From positions 1 to 58,555 of the IMG/VR virus record IMGVR_UViG_3300006793_004421: a DNA stretch of 58,555 nucleotides; one strand, written 5' to 3'. Below are positions 41,367-52,177 of the stretch, piece after piece (position 1 is the first letter of the stretch; every line of letters starts with the position of its first letter). The stretch comes from a virus. The translations under genes and the position numbers were made by a program. The notes below the pieces were generated by a model. It was not told where the DNA came from. It worked only from the letters and a program-made list of their open reading frames with translations, and searched no databases.

Positions 41367-42215
41367 ATGGATTATTACGAACTTTTAGGCGTTCCAAGAA
41401 ACGCTACAGAATCAGATCTTAAGAAAGCATACAAGAAACAAAGTATGCAACACCACCCTGACCGCAATGGTGGAAGTGATGCTAAGTTCAAACAAATTAA
41501 TGAGGCATACTCAGCACTAAAGGATCCACAGAAAAGGCAAATGTATGACCAATATGGTACTGCTGATCCTCAACAAGCACAGGCACAACAGCAGAGTCAT
41601 TTTTCAAATTCTTTTGGTGGTGCTAATTTTGAAGATATATTTGGACAAATGTTTGGAGGACAACCAAACATGCGTAGACAAATGCATAATCAAGATATAA
41701 CTATTGCCGCAGATATTGATTTGGAAGATATCGTAAAAGGTAAAGATGTTATTGCTACATATAGGCTACCAAGTGGCAGAGAAGAAACAGTAGAGATTAA
41801 ACTTCCACGTGGTTGTAGACCAGGAGATAGGATACGTTATTCGGGTATGGGTAGCGACTTACACCCACATGCTCCAAGAGGTGATTTGCACGTTCAGTTG
41901 CGAGTCAGAAGACACCCCGAGTACACTCAAGATGGCATAAATTTATATATAGACAAGAAGTTAAATTTATTTGATTTCGTTTTAGGCACAAACTTAACTA
42001 TCAAAACAATCCACGATCGTACATTGAGTGTTAATGTACCAGCTGGATCTAACCCAGGCACAGTTTTTAGTATTGGAGGTCAAGGTTTACCTGACAGACG
42101 TTCAGGACAAACGGGCAACTTATACATTAAAGTATTAGGTGTAACACCTAAAATAAACGATGAGAAAATTAGAGAACAGTTAAGAAGAATACAAGATGAA
42201 ACTAAAACTACTTAG
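41367..42215 (+). CDS. J-domain co-chaperone (CbpA/DnaJ type II)
   Basis: The 282-residue product has an N-terminal J domain with HPD at 30-32, a short Gly/Phe-Gln region ('FSNSFGGANFEDIFGQMFGG') and the C-terminal beta domains ('GRPGDRIRYSG'-like, 'PAGSNPGTVFSIGGQGLP'). The cysteine zinc-finger repeats of type I DnaJ are absent, so it is CbpA-like. It would steer host DnaK. It overlaps the deformylase gene by 20 bases. Confidence 0.88.
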   Translation: MDYYELLGVPRNATESDLKKAYKKQSMQHHPDRNGGSDAKFKQINEAYSALKDPQKRQMYDQYGTADPQQAQAQQQSHFSNSFGGANFEDIFGQMFGGQPNMRRQMHNQDITIAADIDLEDIVKGKDVIATYRLPSGREETVEIKLPRGCRPGDRIRYSGMGSDLHPHAPRGDLHVQLRVRRHPEYTQDGINLYIDKKLNLFDFVLGTNLTIKTIHDRTLSVNVPAGSNPGTVFSIGGQGLPDRRSGQTGNLYIKVLGVTPKINDEKIREQLRRIQDETKTT

Positions 42216-42723
42216 ATACCCAGATCCATTTTTAAACAAAAAGGTTGCACCTTTTGACTTTGATAAGCATGATGCTAAACAAATCGAAGCTGAGATGATT
42301 GAACTAATGACTAAAGAAAATGGTGTAGGATTAGCGGCAACACAAGTTGGTCTTGATGCACAAATATTCATTATCAAACCAGAAGGATTAGAAGGGTACG
42401 AAGACAATAAACCTTTCGCATTAATTAATCCTGTGATTACAGCCGTAAGTCAAGAAACTGTACTAGGTGAAGAAGGTTGTTTAAGTTTTCCATTATTGTT
42501 CTTTAAAGTTAAAAGACCAACAGGAATGGTAATAGAGTGTCTTGACTCTAGCGGTAAAGAGTGTACAATAGAGTTAGTAGGTTGGAATGCAAGAATTGCA
42601 GGACATGAATACGATCACTTATATGGAATCAACTATGTTGATCGTGTAAGTAAATTAAAACTCGACATTGCTAAGAAAAAGCAATCAAAATTATTAAAAA
42701 GATTTGGAGCCTATATAAAATAA
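42196..42723 (+). CDS. def: Peptide deformylase
   Basis: The 175-residue product has the three deformylase motifs: GVGLAATQ at 43-50, EEGCLS with metal ligand C95, and HEYDH at 137-141 with H137 and H141 as ligands and E138 catalytic. It removes the N-terminal formyl group from new proteins. Phage deformylases of this type are known in marine T4-like viruses. It shares an operon with DnaJ-like and ClpA-like genes. Confidence 0.9.
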   Translation: MKLKLLRYPDPFLNKKVAPFDFDKHDAKQIEAEMIELMTKENGVGLAATQVGLDAQIFIIKPEGLEGYEDNKPFALINPVITAVSQETVLGEEGCLSFPLLFFKVKRPTGMVIECLDSSGKECTIELVGWNARIAGHEYDHLYGINYVDRVSKLKLDIAKKKQSKLLKRFGAYIK

Positions 42724-44990
42724 TGGTAGAACCTAGCGAAAATTTACAGAAAATATTTGACAAAGCATTAGATGTAACTAAGAAACTTAATCACGAATAT
42801 CTTACACTAGAGCATTTGTTATTTTCAATGTTGTGCGAAGAAGACTTTTCAAACATTGTATCAGGATTCAATCAAGTAGATCCAGAATTCATGAAAAAGA
42901 ATGTTGAGAACTTTCTTAAAACAAAGTGCAACGACTTGTTAATGACTGACATTGAAAATCTTCCTAAGAAATGGAAGCCTAAGAAAACACAGGCAGTAGA
43001 ACGTGTACTAAACAGAGCGTTTACACAAGTGTTGTTTAGTGGTCGTAACAGTATTGAAGTTACTGATGTGTTCTTAAGTATGTTTAACGAAAAGAAAAGC
43101 TGGGCATTATACTTTATTAACGAAGTAGGTATTGAAAAAGAAAAGTTTGCAGACTATCTAAACAATGAGCTAGAAGCAAATTACGAAGATGAAGAAATGC
43201 AAGGCATGGCTAATCGTGCATTGCGTTCGTTTACAACTAATCTTAACGTTGATGCAGAAACAGGTAAGATTGATCCTGTTATTGGACGCTCAGAGGAACT
43301 TGAAAACATTGCACTAGCAATAGGACGTAGACAAAAGAACAACGTACTACTAGTTGGTGAACCAGGTGTAGGTAAAACTGCTATTGCAGAAGGACTTGCA
43401 TACAATATTGTACAAGGTAACTGTCCTGAATTCCTTAAAGAATATAACGTATACAATTTAGACATTGGTAGTATGTTAGCAGGTAGTAAGTACAGAGGTG
43501 ACTTTGAAGAAAGATTTAAATTAGTTATTGCTGGCCTTAAGAAGAAAGGCAAAACTATTATGTTCATTGACGAAGCACACATGATTAGTGGTGCAGGTGC
43601 AGGCGGACAAGGTCAATCAAACGACTTAGCTAATATGTTAAAGCCTATTCTAACAAAAGGTAATATTAAAGTTGTAGCAAGTACTACATGGGAAGAATAT
43701 AGAAAGTTCTTTGAAAAAGATCGTGCATTGATGCGTAGATTTGCTCGTGTAAGTGTTGACGAACCTAGCAACGAAATTACTAGAGATATCTTACAAGGTA
43801 TTAAAAAGTATTACGAAGAATTTCATAAAGTATCTATCACAGACGAAGCTATTGATACTGCAATTAAACTTAGTGTGAAGTATCAAACAGATAAGAAGTT
43901 ACCTGACAAAGCTATTGACTTACTAGATGTAGCATGTTCAAGATTTAAACTTAAAGAAGAACCAAACAAAACAGTTGGTATGAAAGAAGTACAGTTTGAA
44001 CTTGCTAAGATGGTTAACATGCCTAAAGAACAAATTATGGAAACTGAAACTAGCAACCTTGCTAACTTAAACCATAATATGAAAGCTGAGATTTACGGAC
44101 AAGACGAATCAATTGATAGTATTGTTGATAAGATTCACGTAGCACAAGCAGGACTTAAAGCAGATAACAAACCAATTGGTTCATTTGTGTTTATGGGACC
44201 AACAGGTGTAGGTAAAACTGAAACAGCAAAACAACTTGCAAAACAATTAGGTGTAAAACTAATTAGATTTGACATGTCGGAGTATCAAGAGAAACATAGT
44301 GTTGCTAAACTAATTGGTTCACCTCCAGGATATGTAGGCTTTGAAGAAAATAGTGGCTTACTAATTACTAAAGTACAAGAGAATCCAAACTGTGTATTAC
44401 TACTTGATGAAATTGAGAAGTCACACCCAGATGTAAGTTCATTATTGTTACAAATTATGGACAACGGATTTGTTACAGGTAGTAACGGTAAGACTGCTGA
44501 CTGTAGAAACGTTGTACTAATTCTTACAACTAACTTAGGAGCCGCAGAAGCTGAAACTAATGCAGTAGGCTTTGGCGAGATGGAAAAAGATCACGATGAT
44601 GGTGAGCTTAAAAAGTTCTTTGCTCCAGAGTTTAGAAATAGACTAGATGGTATTATGACATTTGGTAAACTAGACAAGAACACAATGATTAAAATTGTTG
44701 GTAAGTTCTTAGTTGATCTTAAAGTTATGTTAACTGACAAAGGCGTTGAAACTACTATATCAGACGAAGCTATTGACTTCTTAATTGATAAAGGATTTGA
44801 TAGCAAGATGGGTGCAAGACCACTGCAACGTGTCATCGATAATGATATTAAAACTCCGTTGTCTAAAGTATTATTGTTTGGTGATCTTAAAAATGGTGGT
44901 ACACTACATATTAATGTTAAAGATGGTGCATTTGATTTACAAACAGTAAAGAGTAAATCCAAGGAGCCAGAAACCGTTGATCAAAATTGA
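42723..44990 (+). CDS. clpA: ClpA-like AAA+ unfoldase
   Basis: The 755-residue protein has the full ClpA layout: a Clp_N repeat domain (to ~150), D1 with Walker A GEPGVGKTAIAEGLA near residue 210 and 'TIMFIDEAHMI', and D2 with Walker A GPTGVGKTETAKQL near 490 and 'CVLLLDEIEKSHPDV'. There is no ClpB-type middle domain, and the length is close to E. coli ClpA (758). The loop that docks on ClpP reads V615-G-F where ClpA has IGL. No phage ClpP is in the window, so it may use host ClpP. Confidence 0.92.
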   Translation: MVEPSENLQKIFDKALDVTKKLNHEYLTLEHLLFSMLCEEDFSNIVSGFNQVDPEFMKKNVENFLKTKCNDLLMTDIENLPKKWKPKKTQAVERVLNRAFTQVLFSGRNSIEVTDVFLSMFNEKKSWALYFINEVGIEKEKFADYLNNELEANYEDEEMQGMANRALRSFTTNLNVDAETGKIDPVIGRSEELENIALAIGRRQKNNVLLVGEPGVGKTAIAEGLAYNIVQGNCPEFLKEYNVYNLDIGSMLAGSKYRGDFEERFKLVIAGLKKKGKTIMFIDEAHMISGAGAGGQGQSNDLANMLKPILTKGNIKVVASTTWEEYRKFFEKDRALMRRFARVSVDEPSNEITRDILQGIKKYYEEFHKVSITDEAIDTAIKLSVKYQTDKKLPDKAIDLLDVACSRFKLKEEPNKTVGMKEVQFELAKMVNMPKEQIMETETSNLANLNHNMKAEIYGQDESIDSIVDKIHVAQAGLKADNKPIGSFVFMGPTGVGKTETAKQLAKQLGVKLIRFDMSEYQEKHSVAKLIGSPPGYVGFEENSGLLITKVQENPNCVLLLDEIEKSHPDVSSLLLQIMDNGFVTGSNGKTADCRNVVLILTTNLGAAEAETNAVGFGEMEKDHDDGELKKFFAPEFRNRLDGIMTFGKLDKNTMIKIVGKFLVDLKVMLTDKGVETTISDEAIDFLIDKGFDSKMGARPLQRVIDNDIKTPLSKVLLFGDLKNGGTLHINVKDGAFDLQTVKSKSKEPETVDQN

Positions 44991-45981: not shown

Positions 45982-46575
45982 ATGGAACATTTTGTAAGAA
46001 TAGTAATGGAGAAACAGGAAACGACTAAAGTATTAGACGAAAGTATCTTTCCTGATCAAAACATTTACGAAACTGAACAGGGTGGTAGTGCATGGGAAAT
46101 TGCTTTACCAAGACAACTGTCAGAAGACGAATCAAACGAATATGCTGAGAAACTAGCAAACTATATGTTTGAACAAGGTTACGATGACTTTGATATTGAA
46201 ATTAGTGCAGGACTTGGCGAAGATATTATTGAAGAAACATATGACGACGATGATGAGTTTTATGAGCAGTACGGCGTTATGCATTGGAACGAAGATGATG
46301 ATCCAATGGACGAAGCAGAGTACCAAGGACGTAAAGTAAAACTTGGCAAGCCTATGCAAGGCGATGTTAAAAAATTTAAGGTATATGTAAAAGATCCTAA
46401 AACAGGTAATGTAAAAAAAGTAAACTTTGGACACGGCGGATCAAGTGTTAAAGGTAAAGCTATGAGCATTAAAAAGAATAATCCAAAAAGACGTAAGAGC
46501 TTTAGAGCAAGACACAACTGTGATAATCCAGGACCACGTACTAAGGCACGTTACTGGTCATGTAGGAAGTGGTAA
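45982..46575 (+). CDS. Acidic protein with basic Cys-containing C-terminal tag, 197 aa
   Basis: The N-terminal ~110 residues are strongly acidic (ETYDDDDEFYEQYG). After DEAEYQGRKVKLGKPM the chain turns strongly basic and ends RHNCDNPGPRTKARYWSCRK plus W. I have seen such 'SFRARHNC...W' tails in marine phage proteins, but no function is established. The sharp charge switch suggests a nucleic-acid-binding tail, and the acidic part may shield it. It precedes the internal-protein-like block. Confidence 0.65.
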   Translation: MEHFVRIVMEKQETTKVLDESIFPDQNIYETEQGGSAWEIALPRQLSEDESNEYAEKLANYMFEQGYDDFDIEISAGLGEDIIEETYDDDDEFYEQYGVMHWNEDDDPMDEAEYQGRKVKLGKPMQGDVKKFKVYVKDPKTGNVKKVNFGHGGSSVKGKAMSIKKNNPKRRKSFRARHNCDNPGPRTKARYWSCRKW

Positions 46576-46576
46576 C

Positions 46577-46915
46577 ATGAAGATAAACGAGTTTGCGGAT
46601 ATAGATCCAACGAAACAAAATGATTTAGGATTTGATGTCATCGGTGACATGCAAGTGTTTATGAAGAATGACCCAATGTTCTATCGCAAACAGTATTATC
46701 CAACAATGGCAAAACTACAAGATAAATTAAAAGGTGGCAGAAGTCCTGTACCAGATGACTTATCTAGTATGATTGACTCTTGCTGTAAACATTACTGTAA
46801 TAAATTTGATATTCCTAAAGACCCTTCAAGACTTTTAACTAAAGAAGAATATAACTCATTAGCAGAAATAATCTGTAGCGAGGAAATGGAAGCCCTTAGA
46901 GACGGAGAGTACTAA
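46577..46915 (+). CDS. Conserved phage protein, 112 aa
   Basis: ATG 46577 (MKINEFADIDPTKQND) follows the previous stop by one base; an in-frame upstream ATG at 46520 lies within the earlier gene. The product has 'RKQYYPTMAKLQDKLKGG' and 'MIDSCCKHYCNKFDIPKDP' with three cysteines. The opening MKINEF resembles the MKxxxEF start of T4 internal proteins, but no cleavage site follows. Function unknown. Confidence 0.6.
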   Translation: MKINEFADIDPTKQNDLGFDVIGDMQVFMKNDPMFYRKQYYPTMAKLQDKLKGGRSPVPDDLSSMIDSCCKHYCNKFDIPKDPSRLLTKEEYNSLAEIICSEEMEALRDGEY

Positions 46916-48840
46916 TGTTTTTACGTGAGCTGTTTGAAGCACCTAAGACTGCGGTGTTTGCATTTGGTAGAATGAACCCTCCTACAATAGGACATGCAAA
47001 ATTAGCTGACGTAGTTAAATCACAAAAGGGTGATCCTTTTTTATTCTTAAGTCAAAAACAACATAAAAAAACAGACCCACTACCATTCCCAGAAAAGATG
47101 TATTTTGCATCTAAAAGTTTTCCAGGCGTTGAAGTAGGTGATCCTAAAGTAAACACTATTATAAAAGCTATGCAAAGTCTAGAAGCTAAAGGCTATACAG
47201 ACATTATATACGTAGCAGGTAGTGACAGAATTCAATCGTTTACTAAATTATTAAATGATTACAACGGTAAAGACTATAACTTTAACAGTATTAATATTGT
47301 AAGTGCAGGCGAGCGTGATCCTGATGCAGAAGGTGCTGAAGGTATGAGTGCAAGTAAAATGAGAGCCGCGGCACAAGAAGGAGACTTTGATAGTTTCAAA
47401 CAAGGTGTTGCTAATGCACAGATGGCACAGCAAATGTACGACCAAGTTAGAAAAGGCATGGGTATAGCACAAGACGAAAATGTTAAAGAATGGGTAGGCC
47501 CTGCATTAGGTGCTTTGAAGTACGGAAAACATGCACTTAAAATTGCTAAATGGCTTTACAATAATAAATGGGCAATTACATTCTTTGTAGGGTTGTGGAA
47601 AGTTGGCGGTTGGGTTGCTGATGCTATGGCATGGGCTAAACGTTTCTTAGATCATCCTGTTACAAAAGCATTAGGCACATATGGACTTCCAGCAGTAGGT
47701 ATTGCTGTAGCATTATATGGTGGTAGAAAATTATATATGCAACTAGTAGATATGGAGAAGAAAGGCCTAAGCCAAGAAGAAATGGAAAAGGAACTTACAG
47801 AGTTCAAACCAGATACTTCAGAAGCAGATGCATTTGAAAAAGAGTTAGAAGAATTTAATGACAAATATTTTGCTACTGAAAGTTTAGACGAATATAGTGT
47901 AAAGCAACAAAGACCAAAACTTGATGTACTTAATAACATTGCTGATCGTAAAGACAGTAAACCTTTTCCGTTAAGTTATAAAGACACAGGTGGTGCAAGT
48001 AGCGGAGGTGAAGTATTAATTACTCCACAAGAAGCAAAGAAGTTTATTAAGTTTTACGATAGTAGAGCTGAAGATGAACAAGAGCTAATGCAAAAAGCAC
48101 TAAAGAGTGTTAACGGTATTAAGAATTTATTTAATAACTTAAACATTAATGTAAGTGTTAAAGTACCAAACAATAAAGATATTTCAACACAAGACCCAAT
48201 AGATAAACTTAGATCTAACTTAACTAAAGAAGCATCAAATAGTAACTTAGAACAAGACCTAATTGATATGTACAAAGGAGACGGCGAAGCTGGTCTTGCA
48301 ATGTATATGGTTGACTATTTAAAGTTTACAGAAAAAGAAGTTTCACAAGCATTTAAAAAAGCAGGCGGTGATATTTATAAAATGATTAGTAACGTTGCCG
48401 CTATGAAAAGCGAAGGCGAAAAAATTCCTAATCCTAAAGATACATTTCTTACAAAGTCTGATACAGCATACGATTTCCTACGTGTAGGTAAAACTATTTC
48501 TAATTTAGATGCTGTAAAAAAAGGTGCAAACAGAGATGAACCAGATGTAATGATTGTTCCCTTTGGTGGTAAGAAAGAAAAACAACATCTTAAAAAAGGC
48601 CTTAAGCGTGTAGGTTATAAAACACAAGACGCTGGTAAGCCTGGAGATGATGCACACGTAGATGAAAACTTTGCTGATGGTAAGAAAAAAGGCAAAAGCC
48701 GTCCAGGTAGAGTAAAGAAGTCAGGTGCTAGTTGTAACGGCACAGTAACACAATTACGTAAACGTGCAAAGAACGCATCAGGTGAGAAAGCTAAAATGTA
48801 TCACTGGTGTGCTAATATGAAATCAGGAAAGAAGAAATAA
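46915..48840 (+). CDS. Multidomain protein: targeting-like peptide, nucleotidyltransferase, membrane segment, basic tag
   Basis: The 641-residue chain begins MFLRELFEAPKT, with an L-F-E|A site after residue 8 like T4 prohead-protease sites. Residues 13-150 form an HxGH-type nucleotidyltransferase ('FAFGRMNPPTIGHAKL', T24-I-G-H27, and MSASKMRAAA), closest to NMN adenylyltransferase-like enzymes. Hydrophobic stretches at ~210-260 ('WAITFFVGLWKVGGWVADAM', 'YGLPAVGIAVALYGG') follow, then a long soluble region. The end is basic with two cysteines ('KSGASCNGTVTQLRKRAKN', 'YHWCANMKSGKKK'). It overlaps neighbours by one base each way. Confidence 0.75.
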   Translation: MFLRELFEAPKTAVFAFGRMNPPTIGHAKLADVVKSQKGDPFLFLSQKQHKKTDPLPFPEKMYFASKSFPGVEVGDPKVNTIIKAMQSLEAKGYTDIIYVAGSDRIQSFTKLLNDYNGKDYNFNSINIVSAGERDPDAEGAEGMSASKMRAAAQEGDFDSFKQGVANAQMAQQMYDQVRKGMGIAQDENVKEWVGPALGALKYGKHALKIAKWLYNNKWAITFFVGLWKVGGWVADAMAWAKRFLDHPVTKALGTYGLPAVGIAVALYGGRKLYMQLVDMEKKGLSQEEMEKELTEFKPDTSEADAFEKELEEFNDKYFATESLDEYSVKQQRPKLDVLNNIADRKDSKPFPLSYKDTGGASSGGEVLITPQEAKKFIKFYDSRAEDEQELMQKALKSVNGIKNLFNNLNINVSVKVPNNKDISTQDPIDKLRSNLTKEASNSNLEQDLIDMYKGDGEAGLAMYMVDYLKFTEKEVSQAFKKAGGDIYKMISNVAAMKSEGEKIPNPKDTFLTKSDTAYDFLRVGKTISNLDAVKKGANRDEPDVMIVPFGGKKEKQHLKKGLKRVGYKTQDAGKPGDDAHVDENFADGKKKGKSRPGRVKKSGASCNGTVTQLRKRAKNASGEKAKMYHWCANMKSGKKK

Positions 48841-49040
48841 TGTTCAGTCAACAATGTAAATTACACCTAGAAGAAAAAGGCGAAACAGGTTTACAGCATA
48901 TGAAAGCCGCACTAAAGACCGCAGTTAAATTACAACTGTTGGTTCCAGCTTTAATATTACATAGTGTTGCTCCACGTTGTTTTACAGATACAGCATCACG
49001 AGTAATGAAAGATATTTTAGATGAACGAGATACAAATTGA
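48840..49040 (+). CDS. Small membrane protein, DUF6356-like
   Basis: The 66-residue product has 'HLEEKGETGLQHMKAALKTA', a hydrophobic 'LQLLVPALILHSVAPRCF' and a polar tail. The HLxExGxxxxxHMKxA...HxxxPxxF pattern fits the DUF6356 family of short bacterial and phage membrane proteins, of unknown function. It starts at TAATG with the previous stop. Confidence 0.6.
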   Translation: MFSQQCKLHLEEKGETGLQHMKAALKTAVKLQLLVPALILHSVAPRCFTDTASRVMKDILDERDTN

Positions 49041-49155
49041 TATTGAGCATTACGTAAAAAAATTAAAAGAACACGAAGCTCGACGTGCTAGTTTTAACGA
49101 GCGAATGGAATATTGGAATGGATATAAAAACTCTACAGAGACTAGCAGGGATTAA
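49021..49155 (+). CDS. Tiny helical protein, 44 aa
   Basis: An ATG at 49021 inside the end of the previous gene opens MNEIQIDIEHYVKKLKEHEA followed by RRASFNERMEYWNGYKN, a charged amphipathic helix. It overlaps the previous gene by 20 bases and the next by 38. Codon content looks coding, but at this length the call is tentative. Confidence 0.45.
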   Translation: MNEIQIDIEHYVKKLKEHEARRASFNERMEYWNGYKNSTETSRD

Positions 49156-49345
49156 CGAGTTTTCAGGTTATACTGAATACAACGTTAATGAAAATCCTAG
49201 CATTACTGCAACTGCTCTAAAGAAGAAAGAAAAAGCAATGGGTGTTAAACCAGGTGATAAAGATTGGTTTAAACTTTGGTTTAGTAGACCTTATATGACT
49301 AACCAAAATATGCCACAGGGTTTTAGAGGAAGAAAAAAGAAATGA
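49118..49345 (+). CDS. Small basic protein with conserved tail, 75 aa
   Basis: The start at ATG 49118 (MDIKTLQRLAGINEFSGY) is chosen over ATG 49085, whose extra residues do not look conserved. The tail 'ALKKKEKAMGVKPGDKDWFK' to FRGRKKK is basic. It overlaps the next gene by 4 bases. I place it in the internal-protein-like block by location and charge; function unknown. Confidence 0.6.
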   Translation: MDIKTLQRLAGINEFSGYTEYNVNENPSITATALKKKEKAMGVKPGDKDWFKLWFSRPYMTNQNMPQGFRGRKKK

Positions 49346-50232
49346 GATGGCATGAGATATCAGAAGGCGTAGGACGCATTGTAAAAGGTGTTAACACAAC
49401 TCCTGATGTCGGAGTGGACCAAACTAGTATTGAAGCAAAGAAATTTGGTAATTCGGTTGACAAAGATGGAAAGCCGTTGTATACTATGCATAAGAAAGCA
49501 CATAAGAATACAAAACCAAATACTTTATTTAATATGGGGATGACTGAGTCGCAAATAAAAGAATTAAAATCAAAAGAACTATCAGCAGTTAGTGAAATAT
49601 ACGTAGACATGGACGGAGTGTTAGCTGATTTCTTTCCAGCTTGGAAGAAGATAGTAGGTAAAGATTGGCGACAAATTACAGACATTGAAAGTGCATTACA
49701 AACAATTAGAGACAAAGATGATTTTTGGTTATCATTACCATTAACAAACAATGCTCAAAACTTATTAAACATTATTAAAGATCTAAAAGGCGAGTACAAA
49801 ATATTAAGTGCTCCGTTAGCTAACGATCCTAAAGCAGAACCACACAAGCGTGAATGGGTTAAAAAGAACCTAGCGTTTTTTCCACCTAAAGAAGTTATTA
49901 TATCCGCAGACAAATACAAGTGGGCTAAACAAGCTGATGGTACACCTAACATACTAATTGACGACTTTGGATCTAATATTAGAAACTGGGAAGCTAAAGG
50001 CGGAGTTGGATTTAAGCACAAAGATCATAAGTTTGAACGTACTGCTGGACTATTAAAGGATTACTTTAATAAGCCTGTAGAAGAACGTGAACTTAGCAAA
50101 GACGAAGATAAAGAAAAAGAACGCATAGTAAAGGGCATGAAAAAGAATAAAAGTGACTTTAAGAAGCGTTATGGCGACAATGCTGATGCAGTTATGTACG
50201 CAACAGCAACCAAGATGGCTAAATCAGGATAA
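49342..50232 (+). CDS. Internal-protein-like HAD nucleotidase with basic tail
   Basis: The 296-residue product starts MRWHEISEGVGRI: I-S-E|G after residue 8 fits the T4 prohead-protease rule. A basic linker (to ~80) precedes a HAD domain of the 5'(3')-deoxyribonucleotidase type: D89-M-D91 in 'YVDMDGVLADFFPAW', 'KILSAPLANDP' and 'ILIDDFGSNIRNW'. The C-terminus is a basic tail, 'ERIVKGMKKNKSDFKKRYG' to ATKMAKSG. It overlaps its neighbour upstream (ATGA). Confidence 0.75.
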   Translation: MRWHEISEGVGRIVKGVNTTPDVGVDQTSIEAKKFGNSVDKDGKPLYTMHKKAHKNTKPNTLFNMGMTESQIKELKSKELSAVSEIYVDMDGVLADFFPAWKKIVGKDWRQITDIESALQTIRDKDDFWLSLPLTNNAQNLLNIIKDLKGEYKILSAPLANDPKAEPHKREWVKKNLAFFPPKEVIISADKYKWAKQADGTPNILIDDFGSNIRNWEAKGGVGFKHKDHKFERTAGLLKDYFNKPVEERELSKDEDKEKERIVKGMKKNKSDFKKRYGDNADAVMYATATKMAKSG

Positions 50233-50235
50233 ATA
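50228..50235 (+). promoter_or_regulatory. Late promoter GATAAATA, leaderless geometry
   Basis: GATAAATA overlaps the preceding stop and ends exactly 5 bases before the ATG at 50241. Confidence 0.7.
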
Positions 50236-50240
50236 ATGTT

Positions 50241-50471
50241 ATGTTAATACGTGAACTATTTCAAAAAGACCTAGAAGAAACTGCAACAGCAGGCGGTACA
50301 AGTGCAGGTGCTATAGCAACTGTGGCAAATCCAGTACATGCACATGGGCAAATACCACGTGATAAGAACGGTGTACCTAAAAAGAAGTCTAAGAAAAAAG
50401 CTGACGGCACAGTAGTCAATGCACTAGATGCGTCAGACAGTTTCTTTGGTGGCAAAGTAGCTAAACGATAA
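50241..50471 (+). CDS. Small internal-protein-like basic protein, 76 aa
   Basis: The product starts MLIRELFQKDLEETATAGG, nearly the same opening as MFLRELFEA of the large protein upstream, but Gln replaces the cleavage Glu; L-E-E|T at residues 11-13 is a weaker alternative. The rest is disordered and Lys-rich ('GVPKKKSKKKADGTV'), ending DSFFGGKVAKR. It is leaderless by promoter geometry. Confidence 0.6.
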   Translation: MLIRELFQKDLEETATAGGTSAGAIATVANPVHAHGQIPRDKNGVPKKKSKKKADGTVVNALDASDSFFGGKVAKR

Positions 50472-50474
50472 ATA
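50467..50474 (+). promoter_or_regulatory. Late promoter GATAAATA
   Basis: GATAAATAC overlaps the previous stop and lies 19 bases before the ATG at 50494, with AGAGAGATAAAG as ribosome site. Confidence 0.7.
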
Positions 50475-50493
50475 CTATTAGAGAGATAAAGTG

Positions 50494-51189
50494 ATGAAAA
50501 TGAACAAAAAACAACTAAAAGAAGGTTTAGCAGACATGGCTTACAAAGCTGAGTCAGACCATGAAGTACAGATGGCTAGAGCTGAATTATACAAAATTGC
50601 AAAATACAGTATCAAACTACACGAAATGCTTAAAGGTGTTGACGAGTCAGCAGGCTTAGAAGGCTGGGTACAAAGTAAAATTACTAAAAGTGCAGATTAC
50701 TTAGGTAGTGTTTATCATCACTTAGACTACCAATTTAAATTTGACGAAGTAGCAGAAGCAGTAACTGAATCTGAAAGAGACACACATTGTTCAGACAAGT
50801 GTTGTGGAGCAGATGTTAAAGCAGAAGACTGTGGATGTGCGGCAGACTGTAAAGGTTGTAACTGTAATGACCCTAAAGTATCCGAAGGCATTGATGCCAT
50901 GAAAAAAGCTGGCAATGCAAAAGCTGACGCAGAAGCAAAAGACCGTAAAGCAAGTAAGAAAAAGAACGAATCATACAAAGAATCACTAGCAAGTAGACTA
51001 AGTGAAAAAGTTAGCTCATGCTGTGCAGACTGTGGCAAAGATAGTTACACTACATTAAATCTTTCAGATGAAGAATTAGATGAAGTAGCTGGTCCTGATA
51101 AATGTTGGAAAGGCTATAAGAGAGCTGGAACACAAAAAGGTACTGGTAAGAATGCAGGCAAACGTGTTAACAAGTGCGTAAAGGCATAA
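50494..51189 (+). CDS. Internal-protein-like, Cys-rich basic-tailed protein, 231 aa
   Basis: ATG 50494 is preferred to the GTG before it. The N-terminus MKMNKKQLKEGLADMAYK has an L-K-E|G site after residue 10. A helical domain follows ('ELYKIAKYSIKLHEMLKG', 'DYLGSVYHHLDYQFKF'), then a cysteine cluster ('CSDKCCGADVKAEDCGCAAD', 'CKGCNCN') and 'SSCCADCGKDS' that may bind zinc or iron. The end is basic: 'GPDKCWKGYKRAGTQKGTGK' to KRVNKCVKA. Function unknown. Confidence 0.7.
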   Translation: MKMNKKQLKEGLADMAYKAESDHEVQMARAELYKIAKYSIKLHEMLKGVDESAGLEGWVQSKITKSADYLGSVYHHLDYQFKFDEVAEAVTESERDTHCSDKCCGADVKAEDCGCAADCKGCNCNDPKVSEGIDAMKKAGNAKADAEAKDRKASKKKNESYKESLASRLSEKVSSCCADCGKDSYTTLNLSDEELDEVAGPDKCWKGYKRAGTQKGTGKNAGKRVNKCVKA

Positions 51190-51190
51190 C

Positions 51191-52177
51191 ATGAAAATTA
51201 CGGATCTAATGGAAGCACCTCCCGGAGGTTGGCTTAATACCAAAGCAGTACTAGGTAAAGCAGACGACTTGGTTAGAAATAATCGTTTAGGTAAAGGCAT
51301 GGCTAATACCAACACAGCAATTTCTAAAAAGTTTGGTGGCGCTCATGGTAACAAAGCACCAATTGATCCAGAAGGTGGCATTGACGATAAAGAAACAGAT
51401 GATTGGATTGCAGGCAAAGGTACTAAAGATACTAAAGATGCAAAACCAAAAGCACCAACAAAAGATACTGGTGCAAAACCTTTAGACAAAGCACCAACAA
51501 CAGAACCTAAATCAATTGATGATTTAAAACCAGGTAGTGCATACAACGATGGCACAGCAACTTGGACATGGACTGGAACAGATTGGTCCGACGGTGCAGT
51601 TAAACTAGATCCTGCAACAGGATTTAAACAATTTAAAAAATCTAAAAACAAATTTGTAAAAGAAGGTCCATTTAAAGGTGTTGGCAAAGCCTTGATGAAG
51701 AGAAAGCTCAACAAACAATATAAAAAAGCAGACCTTGCAAATTTTGATAAATCAGGAATAGACACAAAAGGAAAAACTCCTGATGAAGTCGGGCAAATGA
51801 AGTCAGATTACTATCATGACAATATGGATAAGGCTGATAGAGCAAAAAAAGCCAAGGACCGGTTATCAAGAAATAAAAAAGTAAAAGAAGCACCTGGTGC
51901 GGCGGCTCCAGCAGATGCAAAACCAGATCCAAAACAAACACAACAGGTTGCACAAAAAGCAACAGCATTAAAAGGTGTTGTTGGTGGTAAAGCAAGTGGT
52001 GCTCAAATTGCAAAAGGATTAGATAAAGTTGCGGCAGGTGAAACATTACCGCCAAACATTATTAAAGCGATTGCTCCATATGCAACTGCTATTCAATCTA
52101 TGATGTCAAATCCTCAACTGTTTGGTAAGTTCAAAGCACTTATGAAACAAGCTGAAGCTGGACAGAACCAGCAATAA
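51191..52177 (+). CDS. Internal-protein-like disordered basic protein, 328 aa
   Basis: The protein starts MKITDLMEAPPGGW, with L-M-E|A after residue 8. Most of the chain is low-complexity, rich in Lys, Asp, Pro and Ala ('KDTKDAKPKAPTKDTGAKPL'), with a short WTWTGTDWSDGA element and a helical C-terminal part ('AIAPYATAIQSMMSNPQLFG'). It begins one base after the upstream stop. Disorder, charge and the N-terminal site fit a DNA-associated head protein. Confidence 0.65.
   Translation: MKITDLMEAPPGGWLNTKAVLGKADDLVRNNRLGKGMANTNTAISKKFGGAHGNKAPIDPEGGIDDKETDDWIAGKGTKDTKDAKPKAPTKDTGAKPLDKAPTTEPKSIDDLKPGSAYNDGTATWTWTGTDWSDGAVKLDPATGFKQFKKSKNKFVKEGPFKGVGKALMKRKLNKQYKKADLANFDKSGIDTKGKTPDEVGQMKSDYYHDNMDKADRAKKAKDRLSRNKKVKEAPGAAAPADAKPDPKQTQQVAQKATALKGVVGGKASGAQIAKGLDKVAAGETLPPNIIKAIAPYATAIQSMMSNPQLFGKFKALMKQAEAGQNQQ

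Follow-up and report, generated by a model that had tools for sequence, protein, structure and literature searches.

In bacteriophage T4, the internal proteins IPI–III and Alt start with a short N-terminal peptide that ends in L/I-x-E and is cut by the prohead protease gp21; such capsid-targeting sequences (CTS) are propeptides of 7–65 residues cleaved at L/I-X-E, and CTS fusions are packaged and delivered (PMC9026906). In phiKZ-like giant phages (SPN3US, phiKZ), the head carries ejection proteins that a prohead protease processes (PMC9026906, PMC10052503). For cyanophages, the virion of S-SM1 has been reported to contain the cytidylyltransferase T4-GC190 (PMC3037559), and the same kind of enzyme was found in the virions of S-SZBM1 (PMC9146016), S-CREM2 (PMC10665884) and S-SCSM1 (PMC9602691), these papers giving, in the portions available to us, virion association without a targeting mechanism. 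Here, we examined a cassette of seven genes at 46915–52177 of a marine, 58,555-base virus fragment (positions 1 to 58,555 of IMGVR_UViG_3300006793_004421), which is referred to as the window. We consider it quite likely that the products of this cassette are cargo for the head of a large T4-superfamily phage, equipped with T4-type capsid-targeting sequences and handled by the mechanism proposed below.

The cassette resembles the T4 internal proteins and Alt not only in the N-terminal peptide but also in comprising several small, mostly basic proteins and in belonging to a lineage with a gp21-type protease and a gp23-type capsid protein, whereas it differs in that its cargo includes a nucleotidyltransferase and an HAD nucleotidase, in its swapped C-terminal tails and capsid-arm copy, and in that cleavage is putative. 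The likeness to the phiKZ-like ejection proteins is one of description, namely head carriage and processing by a prohead protease; by DNA polymerase, in contrast, the nearest phages to the window are Sinorhizobium phage Phosso and Agrobacterium phage Atu_ph07, with jumbo coliphages next, and the window is therefore probably part of the genome of a T4-superfamily jumbo phage. The cyanophage virion enzymes share a homologous catalytic domain and an internal-protein-like N-terminus with the window enzyme, although the latter sits among several tagged proteins and the style of the tag is different, MxLRELFE in the window as against MKxFxxFLxE in cyanophages.

Targeting-like N-termini and their conservation

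An earlier note on this DNA had proposed T4-like targeting peptides for this cassette and quoted five N-termini, the coordinates of which were confirmed, with an ATG start for each; the open reading frame of the Cys-rich protein opens at GTG 50491, and its quoted MKMNKKQLKE comes from ATG 50494. Four of the genes indeed carry (L/I)xE↓(A/G), the arrow marking the putative cut, with the Glu at residue 8 or 10. The putative propeptides, all on the plus strand, are MFLRELFE↓A of the nucleotidyltransferase-fold protein (46915..46938), MRWHEISE↓G of the HAD protein (49342..49365), MKMNKKQLKE↓G of the Cys-rich protein (50494–50523) and MKITDLME↓A of a basic low-complexity protein (51191–51214). The pattern ^M.{3,10}[LIVM].E[AGS] matched exactly four of the 70 genes called in the window, and these were the same four, all sitting among the seven genes of the cassette (hypergeometric 4e-5, which is a guide and not a test because the region was picked after being seen); the background rate of the pattern after internal methionines was 4.2%. 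The statement that the fifth protein (50241) lacks the Glu was incorrect, as the Glu is at residue 13, in DLEE↓TATAG. Site-spanning peptide sequences, with the putative cut after Glu, are MFLRELFEAPKT, MRWHEISEGVGR and DLEETATAGG. The earlier reading was supported as to T4-type capsid-targeting N-termini on enzyme cargo but missed the site of the 50241 protein, and it also overlooked the capsid-arm copy in that protein and the C-terminal tails shared within the cassette.

The core of the reading is based on the conservation of the site, on gp21-type protease and capsid-protein sites in relatives, and on published virion proteomics of four isolates. For conservation, we used 80 IMG/VR loci carrying a relative of the 46915 gene, with the window added for counts. 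An [LIVMF]xE ending at residue 7–13 was present in 203 of 431 cassette genes (47%) compared with 161 of 950 other genes (17%); when residues 2–16 of the cassette genes were shuffled, the count averaged 91 and never exceeded 120, against the 203 observed. It is the size of the difference that counts, as its p-value overstates the evidence because the loci are related to one another and genes in them were called by a simple longest-ORF (open reading frame) script. On the whole contig of one relative (G003), about six of the eleven tag matches among 145 genes fall in the cassette.

The site is also largely kept in homologues. In the nucleotidyltransferase family, [LIVMF]xE was present in 40 of 43 distinct N-termini while other letters change, as in MFLRELFE↓A, MKFKDITE↓A, MLITEILE↓A and MRAWELLE↓A (the 40 were counted by eye from the listed strings, the script's "no" flag being an artefact of anchor distance); in an alignment of 36 orthologues (A1), M1 is invariant and E8 nearly so, and residues 2–7 are not listed as conserved. 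In the HAD family, the site was found in 23/23 distinct N-termini just ahead of the conserved GRIVKGVNTT, and the leaders themselves vary widely (MKFQEISE, MRLRQLYE, MKWQDIKE, MRYKDIKLAE). Of the 18 distinct N-termini in the Cys-rich family, 16 have the site and all 18 retain the Glu. MKITDLME↓AP of the 51191 family occurs in four loci including the window, and in L005 and one near-identical locus the site is shifted yet kept as NINE↓AP. In cyanophages, 24/24 distinct N-termini read MKxFxAFL(x)E↓A, in which the x of LxE is freely variable. In phage C48C1, the cytidyltransferase is annotated from an internal Met, and its reading frame extends upstream to VIKNFSQYLLEEEREVYFTFGRMNPPT, a tag-like N-terminus (L001:14989–15055).

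These results bear on whether the N-termini are alike by chance or by simple descent through gene duplication and tail swapping. Some shared descent is certain, as C-terminal tails have been swapped between genes, and related loci inflate the counts; however, orthologue N-termini differ at nearly every residue but the site, the shuffles never reach the observed count, and unrelated enzyme families of S-CREM2 carry the tag, as described below. We give chance or descent alone almost no weight.

Prohead protease, capsid protein and scaffold

A gp21-type protease (Peptidase_S77) and gp23 were found in three cassette-carrying IMG/VR relatives (G003, G011 and G015) and in phage C48C1. Nearly all listed capsid proteins of this clade have the pro-site L(S/A/Q/I/M)E↓(S/T/A), and those of cyanophages have LLTE↓A, FLAE↓A and ILTE↓A, the cuts in both cases being placed by position. 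The scaffold gp22 of the clade begins with MLDALKTLFE↓N or MLDIVKQLFE↓N and ends with (R/K)RLAGL.

The likeness to the scaffold raises the possibility of targeting without cleavage, in which the octapeptide would dock proteins to the core or shell of the prohead, its (L/I)xE end forming part of the docking helix. The LFE helix also stands at the scaffold N-terminus, where a cut is unproven, some members carry Asp, Asn or Trp after the Glu, and in T4 IPIII, targeting can be separated from processing by mutation (PMC9026906). Nevertheless, conservation is higher at the Glu than in the remainder of the helix (alignment A1), cyanophages show free variation at P2, and maturation sites of capsid proteins bear the same LxE↓(A/S/T) signature. 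Docking alone is accordingly judged unlikely, and the tags are probably cleaved after the Glu.

The 50241 protein (76 aa, 50241..50471, plus strand) has the putative propeptide MLIRELFQKDLEE↓T (50241..50279), and the junction reads MLIRELFQKDLEE↓TATAGGTSAGAIAT; relatives have MRIRDIISE↓VASAGATSAGNIATVANP (VASAGATSAG), MKIKELLE↓TATAGSTSSGSIATIANP (TATAGSTSSG) and MLIRELFQKDLGE↓TATAG, and two relatives have DLGE↓TATAG at this site. The stretch after the site (50280..50333) is a copy of the mature capsid-protein N-arm, TATAGGTSAGAIATVANP vs TATAGATSAGNIATLNR, and resembles the arm of related phages, YLAE↓TATAGATSAGNIATLNRVILPVIRR. A hidden Markov model (HMM) built from 45 capsid-protein N-arms matched the 50241 protein with E=4e-7, as well as more than 20 other cassette proteins. 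A search of phage isolates with the 76-aa protein found nothing. The small basic protein at 49118..49345 (75 aa, plus strand) has a scaffold-tail-like LQRLAGI near its N-terminus (49133–49153). The motif (R/K)RLAG(L/I) occurs in 15/15 listed gp22 C-termini, and L[KRQ].LAG[VIL] was found in 36 distinct cassette N-termini, with 3 internal occurrences in 1978 proteins. We tentatively suggest, as an idea that may well turn out otherwise, that three borrowed assembly signals address the cargo, namely the scaffold N-terminal helix (LFE↓), the scaffold RRLAGL tail (49118) and the mature capsid N-arm (50241), each placing a different protein at a different prohead site, with swappable C-terminal tails perhaps holding the cargo on DNA. 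If true, these signals would make up a modular address code by which enzymes are loaded into phage heads.

Virion proteomics of isolated cyanophages

T4-GC190 of S-SM1 corresponds to SSM1_190, which has the N-terminus MKKFSAFLNE↓AERS and is 39% identical to the 46915 protein over 182 aa (E=1e-37). The enzymes of the other three isolates begin with MRFRQFIIE↓A (S-SZBM1), MKNFSSFLTE↓A (S-CREM2) and MKSFLQFLKE↓A (S-SCSM1). According to the published mass spectrometry (MS), nucleotidyltransferase homologues are present in virions of relatives. The same kind of tag is found in S-CREM2 on an MS-detected S-adenosylmethionine (SAM) hydrolase (MKDFDSFLEE↓F) and kinase (MKRFDAFLTE↓E) and on the MS-detected hypothetical proteins gp13 and gp136. 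The strict T4/cyanophage tag, a pattern fixed after the N-termini of S-SM1 and some of S-CREM2 had been seen, marks four genes of 219 in S-CREM2, all of which were detected (4/52 vs 0/167, p=0.003). The S-CREM2 paper (PMC10665884) makes no mention of targeting or cleavage, and literature searches of open-licence papers returned no prior link of these proteins to capsid targeting. The Cas9-like gp12 of S-CREM2 (L278:7704–10313, minus strand), which its authors detected in virions, has a CTS-like FASFMAE↓A some 25 residues from its N-terminus.

Several results weigh against loading of the tagged proteins into the head. The site is missing from 3 of the 43 nucleotidyltransferase N-termini and from that of HTVC008M, and homologues outside the group treated here (Asteriusvirus, Cr30 and HTVC008M) have no such leader. 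Among the virion proteins of S-CREM2, a loose tag pattern showed no enrichment (11/52 vs 21/167, p=0.10), and in S-SCSM1 one of the two strict-tag genes was detected, SSCSM1_30 not being so. The five window proteins have no internal [LI]xE[AGST] sites in their mature parts, and over 145 tagged relatives such sites show no depletion (ratio 1.27), so that their absence in the window was not counted as support. As to the assembly genes, gp21 was not found in the 58.5-kb fragment, which may simply be incomplete, and neither gp22 nor gp23 was seen in the window. Lastly, the authors of two of the proteome papers allow for carry-over (PMC10665884, PMC9602691), which would fit proteins that act inside the infected cell, with the tag serving, for example, as a membrane or replication-compartment signal and the MS detection reflecting carry-over of abundant proteins. 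Such an intracellular role is improbable in our view, as detection was reported for four independently purified cyanophages, the few genes marked by the strict tag in S-CREM2 were all detected, and the tags look like the N-terminus of the scaffold and the sites in capsid proteins.

It is thus head loading that we regard as the likely fate of the tagged proteins. In the proposed mechanism, each cargo protein would start with a capsid-targeting sequence of 8–13 residues ending in (L/I)xE. In late assembly, this peptide would bind the gp22-type core, the own N-terminus of which is alike (MLDALKTLFE↓N), and the protein would therefore be trapped in the prohead; a gp21-type protease would then cut after the Glu, so that the mature protein, be it an enzyme or a small basic protein, is released inside the head prior to DNA entry, as for T4 IPI–III and Alt. 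By analogy with T4, we infer that the cassette proteins are injected into the host, where the NMNAT/PPAT-fold nucleotidyltransferase and the deoxyribonucleotidase might act at once on host nucleotide or cofactor pools. Binding to the core, this enzymatic role and the extension of this fate to the remaining cassette proteins are put forward as presumptions. Several cyanophage papers could not say whether virion NMNAT-like enzymes are packaged or carried over, and the conserved targeting N-terminus gives a simple mechanism for the former; it also offers a rule by which head cargo of marine T4-superfamily and jumbo phages could be predicted from sequence. If this mechanism is true, enzymes acting on nucleotide or cofactor pools would enter the host together with the DNA, ahead of all phage gene expression, and the cassette would be a natural catalogue of packable proteins.

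Enzyme domains, C-terminal tails and gene setting

The earlier assignment of nucleotidyltransferase and HAD nucleotidase domains to the cassette was borne out by profile matches (PHROG, Pfam). The nucleotidyltransferase-fold protein (46915..48840, plus strand, 641 aa) consists of the targeting-like N-terminus, an NMNAT/PPAT-like domain, a long linker and a basic Cys tail. It matched the PHROG cytidyltransferase profile (6e-56), and its T-x-G-H and SASKMR motifs are invariant or nearly so in alignment A1. All 36 members matched Pfam CTP_transf_like at E<=0.1, the window protein being under the cut-off of that family. A PDB search by sequence gave no match, and Foldseek with the AlphaFold model (predicted local distance difference test, pLDDT, 87; first 10 residues low-confidence, pLDDT 59) gave PPAT, NadM and NaMNAT as the best PDB matches. 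The product is assigned to the NMNAT/PPAT-like nucleotidyltransferase superfamily on its xGH-type and SxSKxR-type motifs and predicted Rossmann-like fold.

The HAD protein (49342..50232, plus strand, 296 aa) matched Pfam NT5C (PF06941; 3e-8, 34.1 bits against a curated cut-off of 24.8) and PDB 3bwv (6e-4), and is predicted to be an NT5C 5'(3')-deoxyribonucleotidase-like enzyme. The Cys-rich protein (50494..51189, plus strand, 231 aa) has 13 Cys in its mature part (alignment A2), and the low-complexity protein (51191..52177, plus strand, 328 aa, pI 9.8) completes the cassette. After leader removal, four of the five proteins are basic, with an isoelectric point (pI) of 9.2–10.3, the Cys-rich protein having 6.3. 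The upstream neighbour (45982..46575, plus strand) may, judging from relatives' N-termini, carry a longer propeptide, LDE↓S with the Glu at residue 20, and [LI][DN]E[SD] occurs within the first 34 residues in 34 of 53 distinct N-termini of proteins with the RYWSCRKW tail.

Across 45982–52177, the tails MYHWCANM, YATATKMAK, CWKGY..NKCV, RYWSCRKW and NALD..FGGK.KR end unrelated domains, and the same tail ends different proteins in relatives, which points to domain shuffling. The basic Cys tail of the 46915 protein, ENFADG...MYHWCANMKSGKKK (48664..48837), is common to unrelated proteins and defines tail cluster 0, with 77 proteins of several N-domain clusters. The tail ...YATATKMAKSG of the HAD protein (50089..50229) also ends some orthologues of the 46915 protein, and similar stretches occur in cyanophages, HTVC008M and SCTP-2. 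The Cys-rich protein ends in CWKGYKR...NKCVKA (51103..51186; tail cluster 14, 30 proteins) and the 45982 protein in RARHNCDNPGP..RYWSCRKW (46495–46572), all four being on the plus strand. A search of phage isolates with the MYHWCANM tail found nothing. Our guess is that the tails might act in DNA binding or retention.

The cassette is flanked by DnaJ-like and ATP-dependent protease genes (41367–44990) on one side and the DNA polymerase gene (53726) on the other, and tail and virion genes lie upstream of it. For the T4 late promoter TATAAATA, the window gave just two matches, each of them on the minus strand. NCBIfam and PADLOC searches gave no match. The stretches around the DNA polymerase of Phosso and Atu_ph07 are without an equivalent cassette, and the virion MS of Atu_ph07 is therefore not usable as evidence. 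A few genes ahead of the DNA polymerase, Phosso has a 237-aa protein (L091:18570) that starts with MKTTKDIIFETLLLE↓AEAK, a possible longer tag in a jumbo phage that has been isolated. Directly after the end of the 46915 gene, the window encodes a small protein (48840–49040) with a DUF6356 match over the cut-off (PF19883).

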